Below are positions 6,498-64,000 of a DNA stretch of 64,000 bases, in pieces. Position numbers and translations under genes: made by a program. Every line of letters starts with the position of its first letter. Within the stretch, counting starts at the first letter, position 1. Location of the stretch: assembly GCA_963965975.1 (NCBI GenBank), contig OZ014425.1, forward strand, positions 1,935,501 through 1,999,500, read 5' to 3'. This DNA comes from Xestospongia bergquistia. Its lineage: Eukaryota > Porifera > Demospongiae > Haplosclerida > Petrosiidae. The notes below the pieces were generated by a model that searched no databases, had not been told where the DNA came from, and saw only the letters and a program-made list of their open reading frames with translations.

Positions 6498-7909
6498 TTA
6501 TAATGTTTTAACTTTAAGTTCATTGATTATGGTGTTGATAACTTTGTCACGTGTTACTGCATTAATCAAGTCAATTACAGGTAAACTTGGTTGCTCTTTT
6601 CCTTGGACACTATCTAATGTAATCTTGACAAGTTCAATGTTATCTTCAAGAGGAAATATCACCTATCAACAATAGGAGAAGATAAGTGATATAACACTGA
6701 TCAGTGACTCACTTCGTTAGGATTTACTAGTGTTCTATCAAAGTCAGGTGTCACCATAGCTGATACCTATTATAACAATGTGCTGTTAAATATCTAAAGA
6801 ATAATTGACATACTAATGTTCTCACAATAGCTTCTTTTAACCTTTCTTCATTATCTTGAGGCTATAATAATGGAACATTAGTTTATGACAGTACCTACTT
6901 GCTAGACCTACCAATTCAAGCCAGGTATTAACAGACACTGCTGGCTCCAAACATTCAACATAATGCCACCAATGATAAGGAACAAACAGAACATCTCCAG
7001 GAGACAATGTGATCTAGATTATATACTGTAGTACTAGTCTAATTACACTCCTTACCTAGCCTCATACCCAAGTCTTTGGATGCCTGGGTATGGGGCTAAT
7101 AGAATCCTCAACCAGAGAACTGTAGTACTAAAAGATTATGTTCTATTACTTACCTTATATGGTGTTGCATTAAAAAACTTTGAATGTTTAGCAGCATTTG
7201 GGGACTTGATGTTCACATTACTGAACACACTTGACTCTTCATATGGTATTCTGGTGGGATATAACATGTCATTATCTGAGGGAGAATAGAGTGTCCATTC
7301 TTTGGTTCCCCATAATTGGGCAACTAGATTACAACCATACGTGTCATAATGACAAGGTGTGCATGCACCCTCGCTACCTATCCATAAAGTAGACTGGTTC
7401 CCATTCCGAGACTCCAACCCAAACATATTCCAATCTATAGCTTCAACAAGAGTTTGATGATTACAGCATAACTCATTCATGTATTTGTAATCAGCGTATA
7501 CCCAATATTGAGACCTTGAAATAGACAAAAAAGGATTAGGTCTCAGAATATCAGTTTCTAGTCTGAGTCTTTTTGTAGATTTTGTTTCATCTTGATCACT
7601 TGATATCCATTCACTGAACTGACTGAAGTCAGCTTCAATATATTGACATTGGGTTTCAAATACTACATCACTGTCACTAAATAATTTTTTATACTCAAAT
7701 GAATCAGTTTTGGGGCAAACTTTGAATTTTGTACAAACATCATTAAGTTTTTGTGAAATGAATTGAGGACTCCATGTTAAGGGGTATTCCCAATCGCTGG
7801 TTATAAATCCCCTAAATATGGTTGGAACCTTTAGTTCGTTTAATATTAGTTTCTTTAATTCACTTGAAGTAAGATGACTATCTGAAGTGATCACAGAAAC
7901 AGCAGCCAT
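6498..7909 (-). CDS. HSPBAP1: HSPBAP1-like JmjC-domain protein
   Basis: Probable Fe(II)/2-oxoglutarate oxygenase of the JmjC class, close to HSPB1-associated protein 1. Exons: 7909-7154, 7013-6912 (34 codons), 6861-6814 (16 codons), about 6766-6715 and about 6676-6498. Exon 1 begins with the typical [20 protein letters not shown] entry. The catalytic core is visible: [20 protein letters not shown] gives the HxD iron ligands, and the next exon gives the distal histidine in [23 protein letters not shown] is a family signature. The protein is about 380 residues, somewhat shorter than the human one because the C-terminal region is short. It shares an 87-bp intergenic promoter with the IFT54 gene in the opposite direction. 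Substrate is unknown in any species as far as I know. Confidence 0.88.
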
Positions 7910-7936
7910 AATAATATAATATTAGGGGTGTGGTTT

Positions 7937-37426: not shown

Positions 37427-38845
37427 TTAATCATCGTCGTCAAAGTCAGGTAATGCACCATCAAAGAGTCGACCACCACATGAAGTGGTCCCAACATGAA
37501 AATGACTATATGGATTATGACGAGATAGCATTGCCTCACACAACCAACAAAAATTACAATTACAATTAGAACATGTCATTTTATTACAGCCATGAGACTT
37601 CTCAATATTAGCCTGACAATTGGGACATCGTTTGGAGTTACTTTTGATCCATTTACTAGAATCATACTCTTGAAAGGCTTTCATTAAATGCTGACGGCCA
37701 TATTGCTGCTCTAGAGAATGACGAACATCAGCATCACCTGAATCGTACATCTCCTTCAACTCCCTCATATCATCAGGTAATAACTTACAAGGTGATATAC
37801 CATGCCATGTACGTTTGCACAAAATACAAAATGAAAACTTACAGCAAGGACAGACAGCCATATTACAATCTTCCTCTTTTACAGTGACACAACGACAAGG
37901 TGGGCGGGGACAGTAGACAATGTCTGTCATACCATCTAGAGTACGTTGAAGAAGTAACCTATCATACCGTTCAAATAATTCTGGTGGAACCAATTCTTGT
38001 ACAAGTCCTGGTGGAATCAGTTCAGTACAATTGGAGCTAGGGCACTCAATTTTTGTAACATTACCTTCTTTAATTTTATTGCTAACATGTGCTCGCATAC
38101 ATTCAGTGCAATGTACATGTGAACATATTTGAAGACAGATACATTGTGAACCAGAAAAAGTTAAAAAACAGATTTCACACGAAAAACGATTCATTTGAAA
38201 TAGACGAGTCTTGTGCTCTCGATCATACTCAAGTAATGAGGGTATAACCATATATGGATGTTCCATCTCTTGAAAACAACGACGATCCCAGTCTCCTAAT
38301 GGAGGAAAAGGATTCTGAAATGTGATGGTCAACGTGTTATCAATTTCCAATGTTGTTAGTGACTCTGATATGAGAAACTGTTGCCATTGATAAAGAATAA
38401 CACTACCTTCATTATCACGCCAAATTTGGTCAAGATGTTGGCACAAAGTACTGAGCTGTAATACAAATAAATAATAATTTCATTGTTGTATTATGTACCG
38501 TACCTGAGTAAAATTTAACCATTTGCATGACAACGTGAACATGGGTGGAGCTGATGAAGGATAGTTAGGTGGTAGTTGGAAGTGAAGTTTTATTGGTGGA
38601 AGATGTGCTACATTGACTGACTGACTCACTAGATTGTGCGCCTTTTTCGTGGATGGTGTTATCTTGGTAGCAGGATTCAACTGAACATGTAGAGATGGGT
38701 GTGGTAGAATGACATCAGCACTCAAAATACCCATAACAATGCCTGCTCTATCTCCTGTACGTTCCCACTGAAATTCCTCTTCTTCTTTTCTCATGGCTTC
38801 CAGGAGAGCCAGTTCATCTTCTTGTTGCACACTGTCTTCAGCCAT
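37427..38845 (-). CDS. RNF14: RNF14-type RBR E3 ubiquitin ligase
   Basis: RING-between-RING ubiquitin ligase of the RNF14 (ARA54) family. Two exons: 38845-38505 and 38455-37427. Exon 1 encodes the RWD domain (QEDELALLEAMRKEEEEF, LPPNYPSSAPPMFTLSCKWL). Exon 2 has RING1 (CEICFLTF...HVHCTECM), the signature ELFERYDRLLLQ, the IBR (CRCVTVKEEDCNMAVCPCCKFSFCILC) and RING2. The catalytic cysteine is expected in GCNKMTCSNCNCNFCWLC, where the pattern is intact. About 450 residues, close to the human 474, with the typical acidic tail (DFDDDD). The ATG at MAEDSVQQE is used; the in-frame upstream codon is GTG. In vertebrates RNF14 acts on RNA-protein crosslinks and stalled translation factors; transfer of that role is inference. 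Confidence 0.95.
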
Positions 38846-60388: not shown

Positions 60389-63300
60389 ATGAAAGCAGTG
60401 TTACCATTATGTATAGTCCTCTTAATATTTCAGTACTGTGTACCAGTTGCTGAGGCGTCAGATGATGAGCTATACCAGTACAGGAAGGGACCGGTGCCAT
60501 ATAGATTTAGGAGAGGAGATCGTTATCCCGACAGAGATGAAGACATAGAATGCAGACCAATCAAGTTACGCATTGCAAGGGGAATGCAGAAATTTGGAGA
60601 ATTGGTGACCTACTCTGGCAATAAGATGTATTTCTATGATGATAATAGCCGTATCATGTCCTCACGAATGCATTCAAGACTGACAACCCTTGCAGATGAC
60701 TATTATGAAGTATATCATGTTAAACTCTATATTCTCAAAGCATGGACACCTTATCCTGACTATTCAGTTGACAATACTTCATTACATTATGAAGGTAAGA
60801 TAATAGCATCTTTTTTCACTTGAGTTATATGGTCTATATTCTAGGAAGATGTGTTAGAATTCATATATCTAACAGTAATGCATCCGATCTATTAAAATTT
60901 GCTATTTCATATGCAAATTTTGATTGGGTTACTTGGGACGTAGAAGGTTATGCCCGACTTTGTGTTATACCAGATGGTAAGGACATTATTTAGAATTTTT
61001 TAATTACTTACATTCTCTAGTATGTGATACTTCACTTGACATTGTGTTTGTTTTGGACCAATCTGGTAGTATTGGCAGGGCTAATAACAGAATAGCTCTC
61101 CAATTTTTGAGTAGCGTCATTGATTTCTTTAAAATTTCTCCAAATGCTACTCAAGTTGGATTAATAACTTATTCTACACATGCTTATGTTAGGTTTGATC
61201 TTGATGATTATAGCTCTAAAGAAACTATACAAGACAAAATTGCAAGAATTGATTATCCTGGTGGTTGGACTGCTACTGCTTTAGGCCTATTTCAAGCTGG
61301 TGTCATTCTAAACCCTCAACAAAGACGAGGTGCTCGACCTCTCACAGAAGGGATTCCCCGTGTGACTGTCCTCGTGACAGATGGTCGCTCTAATCGATTG
61401 CCAATTGATGAAGTTACTATATCACTGCATGCTTCTGGTGTACAAGTATATGCTGTTGGTATTGGTAATATCTACCTACCAGAACTTAAGTTTATTGCAT
61501 CTGATCCTGACCGACTTCATGTATATCTGTTGGACTCCTTCAATGATGCACAAGGATTTGTTGACTTCCTCAGTTTTACCACCTGTGATAGTGAGTTGTT
61601 TTTAAATAGTATTTGGCAAGTCTACTTTAAACTTACATATTGTGATAGTGACTTGTTTTTAAAATAGTATTTGGCAAGTTTACTTTAACCTTTCATATTT
61701 GGAAGTACTGAAGATGTATAGCTGTTAGGCATTAGGTAGTCTTTGTACCATTATTATCCTGTTTACTGTTGCATCAACAGAGCTCAGCAAAGTGTCCTTT
61801 CATTAAATAGTCTAGCCAAATCATCCTACTGCATTTTTGGAATATATGGAACTATGAATATGGCATGCTAATATTTTAATTTTCCTGTTGTTCTATGAAC
61901 ATTAATTGTGTATTTACATTAAGATTATTAGCCAGTAAATAGTTCTCCTTCCTGGCTATACTAATTAGTACTTTTAGACAAACAATAAACAGTTCACCAT
62001 TTTGAGATAATAATGAAATAAATATAGAGTGAGGAATGTGTTTGATATAATTCCTTACTCCCAGTTTGGTACCAACATGACAGTGTTAATTAATACTACA
62101 AAGATAATTGGCAATCACTTGTCTATGGTCTGTAGTTGAATTATCTAATTTTTTTTATTTTATTAGCTCCAGCTATAGTTGAGCCAGGACAGAACACAAC
62201 CACAGATGTACCTGGTGATAGTTTCCGCTTCTTTCAAACTGAATGTAATGCTTTCTCAGTGTCTGTTATAATTGAACAGATTGATCTCTATGGTCAATGT
62301 CATCTATATGCCTCTAGTTCAAAACCTAATCCAGGACCTTTAGATGATAAAAACATAGTTGTAAGAAATGAAGACTCAAAATCTGACAGAAGAAGTGTTG
62401 TACTAAAATTTGGCAAGAAAATAAAGAAAGTAAGTATTAATTTACACATTACCTCATACTAACAAGTAATGTAGATGCTTGAAGGACATTCCTACACTAG
62501 TGATACATTATCAGTATGCATATATCAAGTGTCGATTGACCTTTTATATTATTAACATCTCTTTATATCTTAGTTTGTGTACATATCAGTAAGAGGTATT
62601 AAGTATAAGAACTCATTTACTGTCATCATTTGGGACATGCTGTTTAGAAAGGAAGAATTCACAGCATATGCGCCTGAAGGTGTCGTTAATCAAGCTATCT
62701 TTGACCTTGATTCACAGCTGAAAGTGACCACAGAAAGGTATGTATCTGTTTGTTGTGCTTAGAGTCCATGTAGTATGTTTGTGAAGACTTTTAAGGGACT
62801 TTATTATATTGAGTGTGTCTATGTGTATATAACAACTCATGCCCACATAAGTATGTTAGTGTAAACTGAACCACTACACACACCAACCTACTAGTTCTGG
62901 TCATTTCTCCCTTATATGGTTGGATGACCAAGTTATGCCTTATCAATATCCTCTTCAATTGCCTTATAAAGAATGTATTATATCAGCTATAGTCCATAAC
63001 ATACAATGATGAATAATGTTTGTAATTGTCATGTTCATTATAAGCAAGTTATGATATCTTCCTTTTAGTTTCTATTATCGTATTAAAAAGGGAAATGATG
63101 GAGAGGAATTTGAAATTGATAATATTACTGGGATTTTATATGTTCGTAAACCATTGAGTATTGCTCAACAAGCTTACTACAAACTCTTGGTTGTTGCTGA
63201 AAATGTCAATGCCTCTTGTCATAGAGGAAAAGTTACTATACATGTTATTGTTGTACGTAACCAGCTCCAATTTGACCCATTGTCTCCTGTTTCCATTCCT

Positions 63301-64000
63301 GAGACTACTCCTGGAGGAACCAATGTCACTCAAGTGAGAGCATCTGGAGGAGCAGGAATTGTCTTGTATTCTATTATAGATGGTAATGTTGGAAATGCAT
63401 TTCTTATTGATCAGGACACAGGAGATATAACAGTTAACAATCCATCTGTATTAAATTTTGAGACACGCTCACAATACCAGTTGATAGTCCAGGCTACGTC
63501 TTCTCCTGGAGGTGCTACAGCTACTGCAAACCAAACCATTAATATTCTTGATATCAATGAACCTCCTGTATTTATTACCCTGTGTGCACTCAATAACACT
63601 TGTGAGTTCTCTGTGTTTGAGGACTTAACTGTTGGAAGTTTGGTTGGTCAAATAGAAGTAGATGATCCTGATCTCTCCTCAGTCCCTAATGGTATGTTAG
63701 TATATACACTATTACCAACTACTCTGCCATTTATTATTGACAATCTTGGTCGGATATTGTTAAATGAATCATTAGATCGTGAAACACAAGACAGATACAA
63801 TGTTAGAGTAATTGTACAAGATTCTGGATCTCCCAGTATTTCTATTCAAACTAATGTCGTTATATTAGTGTTGGATGTCAATGACAATGCACCAAGATTT
63901 GTAAACAATCCACCAACCAGATTTGCTATAAGAGAAGACACACTAGCAAACAGTCCTCTTCATCAATACACAGCAGTAGACGATGACATTGGTATAAATG
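60389..64000 (+). CDS. hedgling-type protein: Hedge domain, VWA, cadherin repeats (3' end beyond window)
   Basis: Large secreted or transmembrane protein beginning with a signal peptide (MKAVLPLCIVLLIFQYCVPVAEA). Exons: 60389-60793, 60845-60975, 61021-61591, about 62167-62429, about 62575-62738 and 63069 to the edge. Residues about 25-180 are hedgehog-N-like: RIMSSRMHSRLTTLA, VKLYILKAW, NTSLHYEGRCVRI, FAISYANFDWV. Then comes a von Willebrand A domain with a complete MIDAS (DQSGSIG, the Thr in GGWTATALG, the Asp in VLVTDGRS). After a linker of about 100 residues, cadherin repeats start; the later ones have INEPPVF, LDRETQDRYNV and DVNDNAPRF calcium motifs. This domain order is that of Hedgling, described in Amphimedon and Nematostella. 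No Hog autoprocessing domain is seen in the window. The Hedge part is divergent (see findings). Confidence 0.9.
61592..62166 (+). other. 575-bp intron of the hedgling-type gene
   Basis: Follows the VWA domain. It contains a near-exact short duplication of the exon edge (TGTGATAGTGAGTTGTTTTTAAA at 61586 and TGTGATAGTGACTTGTTTTTAAA at 61641), so the donor region was locally duplicated. Nothing else is recognised. Confidence 0.6.

Follow-up and report, generated by a model that had tools for sequence, protein, structure and literature searches.

The gene at the right-hand end of the window, the 64-kb stretch of sponge DNA analysed here (C15:1935501-1999500), is predicted to encode a Hedgling: a 2451-residue single-pass membrane protein with a hedgehog-N domain at the end of its ectodomain. 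This domain lacks the residues that bind zinc and, probably, those that bind two calcium ions in hedgehog, and the protein would act at cell contacts rather than as a released, lipid-modified morphogen; we give this reading a probability of roughly 0.85. Contig C10 of the same 146.5-Mb genome also carries a stand-alone hedgehog-N gene, in which the metal ligands are retained. The contrast between the two within one genome is the main point of interest, the C10 gene being the less expected of the pair.

Structure of the Hedgling gene

The gene occupies positions 60389-69528 in window coordinates (+) and extends beyond the right edge of the window. The first-pass annotation, which had placed it at 60389-64000, was correct about the start but covered only the first six exons. 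The model, predicted from the DNA letters and joined by eye from splice sites, comprises 16 exons and 15 GT-AG introns, 11 of which measure 44-53 bases, with a frame open to a single stop. Six exons can be joined within the window, the sixth being cut by its edge; ten more lie downstream on the same contig. The order of domains in the spliced product is leader, hedgehog-N, VWA, cadherin repeats, two Ig, two EGF, one membrane helix, and a cytoplasmic tail. The Hedgling type, the leader, and the Hedge-VWA-cadherin order read by the first-pass annotation were confirmed by Pfam on the spliced exons, and the extension past the right edge that it had called for brought in the rest of the cadherins, both Ig and both EGF units, and the membrane helix; a Pfam scan of the spliced product detected no Hog/Hint domain. 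The window gene therefore supplies a full-length Hedgling model.

Exon 1 (60389..60794, +), recognized by its open frame and splice sites, starts with the ATG at 60389 and encodes a hydrophobic leader, taken for a signal peptide from hydropathy and visual inspection alone, and the first part of the Hedge domain, as far as LHYE; its donor, GTAAGA, is in phase 1. The remainder of the domain (GRCVRI..FDWVTWD..YARLCVIPD) lies in exon 2 (60845..60976, +), in phase 1 at both ends, so that the domain is split by one phase-1 intron after LHYE and followed by another at its end. The Pfam match to PF01085 HH_signal (60563..60945, +; aa 59-169; 46.6 bits, E 3.9e-12) crosses the first of these introns, 60795-60844. 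Exon 3 (61021..61590, +), likewise bounded by phase-1 introns and in that respect suited to exon shuffling, encodes the VWA domain (match 61038-61559, 130 bits), which in the product spliced from the first six exons occupies aa 186-359, directly after HH_signal. A linker without a Pfam match follows in exon 4 (62167..62429, +), then the start of the first cadherin-like unit in exon 5 (62574..62737, +). Exon 6 (63069..64000 in the window, on to 66405, +) consists of cadherin repeats, with 11 Pfam stretches spanning it entirely; a cadherin match in exon 7 is below the Pfam cut-off. Exons 7-16, from downstream of exon 6 to the stop at 69528 (+), contribute the two Ig and two EGF domains, the helix, and the cytoplasmic tail. 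The helix (aa ~2245-2272, near the C-terminus) corresponds to a single strong hydropathy peak of 3.55 at aa 2254. Between the EGF domains and the helix there is a cysteine-bearing, Pfam-less stretch, encoded at 68147-68591 past the window edge, which starts SSSRRKR; RRKR, at aa 2110-2113, is presumably a furin-like site.

Among the other genes of the window are those for a Cupin_8 protein (7136-7921, -) and an IBR-domain (RBR-type) ubiquitin ligase (37427-38479, -). Collagen-like frames were noticed by eye downstream of the Hedgling gene.

Metal sites and lipid attachment

In mouse SHH the zinc ligands are H141, D148, and H183, the catalytic residue is E177, and calcium is bound by E90, E91, D96, E127, D130, and D132, as given in PMC8052667. 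A 14-row MAFFT alignment gave the corresponding positions. In the window domain H141 is retained as H133, whereas D148 and H183 are replaced by R140 and R173, i.e., one of the three zinc ligands is kept; the catalytic E177 is D167. The profile alignment stops at D167, and R173 is matched to H183 from the other alignments, whose tails are ungapped. The three residues named in the first-pass annotation (the His of LHYEG kept, Arg at the Asp position and at that of the second His) were all read correctly; the alignment has H, R, and R at the three zinc positions, a broken site. The predicted hedgehog-N domain lacks the set of residues needed to bind zinc and, as far as the alignments go, the metal loss is real.

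The loss of the calcium site is an addition to that annotation. The six calcium positions, from E90 to D132, are occupied by D, N, S, K, T, and Y, none identical to SHH and one of the six acidic in the MAFFT alignment; two of the six are acidic in the profile alignment, which opens a gap placing an Asp at D132, and the pairwise alignment deletes D96. The residues for the two calcium ions of hedgehog are therefore probably absent as well. CGPGRG, whose absence from the start of the domain the annotation had noted, has no match anywhere in the window protein, the first Cys after the leader being C55.

Of the other 13 aligned sequences, 12 have a complete zinc triad. The exception is fly Hh, with T and Y at two zinc positions and V at E177, which likewise keeps one of the three zinc ligands. 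Drosophila Hh is a morphogen despite its missing zinc ligands, and since it also lacks two of them and the catalytic Glu, zinc loss alone is silent on signalling. For the Hedgling family metal loss is known: incomplete metal sites are described in PMC6027127 and PMC8052667, and the window gene accordingly adds to a known type. That the window domain has lost its ligands, rather than never having had them, we infer from the bacterial and C10 relatives, which keep theirs; the window domain itself could not be placed in the tree.

The neighbouring VWA domain retains DQSGS, T, and TDG, the motif of a VWA metal site, and any metal-dependent binding may therefore be the task of this domain instead. 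The loss of the calcium site along with zinc, with the VWA metal-site residues kept, fits a domain retained as a binding surface.

Proposed function and alternative readings

A plausible use of the Hedge domain, judging by the sequence, is as a contact-dependent adhesion or ligand module. Calcium- and metal-dependent binding would come from the cadherin stack and from the metal site of the VWA. The Hedge head would offer a surface for binding proteins and have no peptidase activity, and the cytoplasmic tail, which bears tyrosines and one YGNM motif, may relay a signal inward. Such a protein would not be a released, lipid-modified morphogen, unless the extracellular RRKR permits shedding of the ectodomain, which is speculative.

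It is rather unlikely that the Hedge head is instead the ligand of a Patched-like receptor on neighbouring cells and thus a membrane-bound forerunner of hedgehog signalling. The calcium site of hedgehog is part of its co-receptor contacts; in the window domain this site is gone, the CGPGRG segment is absent, and the two PF02460 matches of the genome sit in an apparent NPC1 gene. Such a role would agree with the retention of the Hedge domain and with the presence of Patched homologues beside Hedglings in choanoflagellates, as described in PMC4054682.

Even less probable is a rebuilt metal site, in which H133 and H142 together with D167 or a cysteine would bind a metal in another geometry and the domain would still be a metalloprotein. 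H133 is retained, H142 lies two residues beyond where the Asp was lost and could contribute to such a geometry, the residue at the E177 position is an Asp, and C138 and C175 are near the slots; yet the remaining two canonical zinc positions are Arg (R140 and R173), which disfavours a cation site, and the calcium positions E127, D130, and D132 are K, T, and Y (Asp at the last one in the gapped profile alignment).

The contact-acting, metal-free Hedgling that we favour presupposes that its N-terminal domain is a genuine hedgehog-N domain, as claimed from the start. With a limit of E 1, phmmer matched 25 PDB sequences, every one of them a hedgehog and DHH the best (E 7.5e-9), and a profile built from 12 such domains (3 from animals, 9 from bacteria) scores the window domain at 57.3 bits, compared with 8.7 for the best of 2000 same-residue shuffles. 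Locally, the window domain is 33-38% identical to three animal hedgehogs and 29-34% identical to seven bacterial sequences. A structure prediction, made for the exon-1 part only (112 aa, without an alignment), had a mean pLDDT of 36.8, too poor for a fold search. A chance resemblance, in which a cadherin-VWA gene would carry an unrelated front end, is ruled out by the Pfam, PDB, and shuffle scores, even though the identity is just about one third.

A second hedgehog-N gene

The stand-alone gene (locus L010, C10:5427491-5428019, -) encodes a hydrophobic leader and a hedgehog-N domain ending in SCKAEK and a stop, with no intron seen; its product is probably secreted, to judge from this predicted sequence. 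PF01085 matches C10:5427509-5427950 (-) with 100 and 74 bits in two frames. A single frame shift separates the calcium half from the zinc half, each of which is otherwise open; as assembled, the product would stop before the zinc half. With the pieces joined by XXX, the match to SHH has an E of 1.7e-46, and local identity amounts to 81/141 residues (57%) with human SHH and 80/137 with Flavivirga algicola. The zinc residues H, D, and H and the catalytic E are all retained in the 14-row MAFFT alignment. All six calcium positions are acidic, four of them identical to SHH and two altered (E91 to D and D132 to E).

The genome contains a single match of this kind, with no second copy. On one side of the gene, on the opposite strand, RCC1 (in two frames) and HECT matches exceed the Pfam cut-off and a WD40 match falls short of it; on the other side the closest frame is a weak WD40 (E 0.025), L009:8746-8976 is matchless, and RCC1-like frames were seen by eye further off. 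The RCC1 and HECT frames suggest a HERC-like host gene and, if these exons form one gene, the C10 gene probably lies antisense in one of its introns. No VWA was found in the 40 kb fetched around it (best E 9.8), and a missing VWA exon was accordingly rejected. Contamination was judged an unlikely source, the contig being 7.3 Mb long, with 33% GC in the surrounding 40 kb and 35% in the gene.

Affinities of the C10 gene

In a tree without the window domain the C10 sequence groups with three animal hedgehogs against seven bacteria at 95/94; with nine bacteria (the earlier seven, L030, and L031, the weak L032 being left out) the grouping stands at 94/94, with the star lost. The animal side of both trees comprises three sequences, none cnidarian. 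The rival placement, in which the C10 gene would be a transfer from Flavobacteriaceae, is not rejected by the AU test (p 0.058 with seven bacterial rows and 0.099 with nine). When the window domain is included, no placement is supported, its own branch having a length of 10.

Residue by residue the C10 sequence, as predicted, appears intermediate between animals and bacteria. At 15 columns invariant in animals and absent from the seven bacteria it is animal-like in 5, bacterium-like in 7, and neither in 3; at 9 columns invariant in bacteria and absent from animals it has the bacterial residue in 4, the animal one in 3, and neither in 2. A segment (..ASG) common to C10 and the three animals is two residues longer than in all nine bacteria, which may reflect gain or loss, the tree being unrooted. 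The bacterial sequences, BacHhs, are described in PMC8052667 as ending where hedgehog exon 2 ends, and the end of C10 fits this too.

Relatives in bacteria are uncommon, with matches above the cut-off in 3/397 and 4/295 genomes of two families and in 1/395 genomes of one phylum, all in sets centred on genomes already known to match. Among plasmid records, 1/72,556 carried a relative; 29 pattern matches in viral contigs yielded no relatives, and the phages gave no match. In Flavivirga (L018:1086-3156) the BacHh domain (176 bits) comes last in a protein that has a VanY-type D-Ala-D-Ala carboxypeptidase domain (E 3e-13) for its front half, and the gene adjoins one for a phage-type lysozyme (E 2e-30); by eye, L019 and L027 resemble this arrangement.

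Other hedgehog-pathway domains in the genome

The genome has four Hint matches, all on contig C7. In C7:1494001-1500000 (L035) one of these (E 5e-55) follows an AIG1/GIMAP-type GTPase frame (AIG1 E 9e-29), and a similar-looking AIG1/Hint pair was noticed by eye on the opposite strand. PF01085 and PF01079 match on different contigs, so no Hedge-Hog fusion is seen. Canonical Patched was rejected as an interpretation of the two PF02460 matches, both falling in the apparent NPC1 gene, in a scan that works exon by exon and that a true Patched could escape. There are also four Frizzled-family matches; the weakest, the one compared further, is nearest Frizzled-3 (E 9e-34) rather than SMO (E 4e-23) and was rejected as Smoothened.

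Implications for the origin of hedgehog

Three published papers state that sponges lack hedgehog, and current views of how the hedgehog ligand arose presuppose that sponges have no intact hedgehog-N; the C10 gene, with its ligands intact in a Hedgling-bearing genome, makes this premise testable. The proposals put forward are that hedgehog arose from Hedgling by regaining the metal site, or that it came from bacteria in the cnidarian ancestor. PMC2362128 describes an EST from Oscarella carmela that encodes a Hedge domain, with neither Hog nor VWA in the fragment, and that could be of either type; a search of open-licence PMC papers turned up no sponge with an intact, stand-alone hedgehog-N gene.

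We suggest tentatively, at somewhat less than even odds, that this sponge has both kinds of hedgehog-N: a metal-free Hedgling and a stand-alone, probably secreted C10 protein with the zinc triad, six acidic calcium positions, an SHH-like KAE end, and a place on the animal side with respect to BacHh. If C10 is sister to the hedgehog ligand, an intact gene would predate the sponge-cnidarian split, distinct from Hedgling and still without a link to Hog. Both published proposals would then need revision.

Comparison with known systems

PMC4054682 describes Hedglings as large proteins that span the membrane and carry an Hh domain at the N-terminus, a VWA next to it, and multiple cadherins; it reports them from choanoflagellates, sponges, and cnidarians. 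Compared by published description, those of Amphimedon queenslandica, Nematostella vectensis (Nv 200640), and choanoflagellates resemble the window gene in the Hedge-VWA-cadherin-helix order, the lack of Hog, and the incomplete zinc motif. The Hedge domain is encoded by a single large exon according to PMC8052667 and by two in Nematostella according to PMC2362128; the window gene has two. Two A. queenslandica primers given in PMC2000352 had no match in the genome, one a 30-mer searched exactly and the other a 20-mer allowing up to one mismatch; as a primer may span an exon join, this makes A. queenslandica an unlikely source and no more.

With the bilaterian ligands SHH, DHH, and fly Hh the window gene shares the hedgehog-N domain, at the 33-38% local identity given above, and differs from them by the absence of Hog and CGPGRG, by a single zinc ligand out of three, by the missing calcium site, and by its cadherin scaffold. 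BacHhs, bacterial M15A-like peptidases with hedgehog-N, share the domain according to the profile (seven of them at 29-34% local identity), with, unlike the window domain, the zinc triad and catalytic Glu in all nine rows; their calcium residues are kept save D132, which differs in 6/9, and E127, which is Asp in 2/9.

Three small secreted Hh-domain proteins, with Hh adjacent to VWA, are described from a choanoflagellate in PMC4054682. By this description the Salpingoeca rosetta proteins are like C10 in being small, with a signal sequence and no membrane helix; their Hh domain adjoins a VWA, whereas C10 has none in 40 kb. Within the sponge genome itself, C10 and the window Hedgling both have hedgehog-N after a hydrophobic leader, C10 being stand-alone, intronless as seen, and in possession of its zinc ligands.
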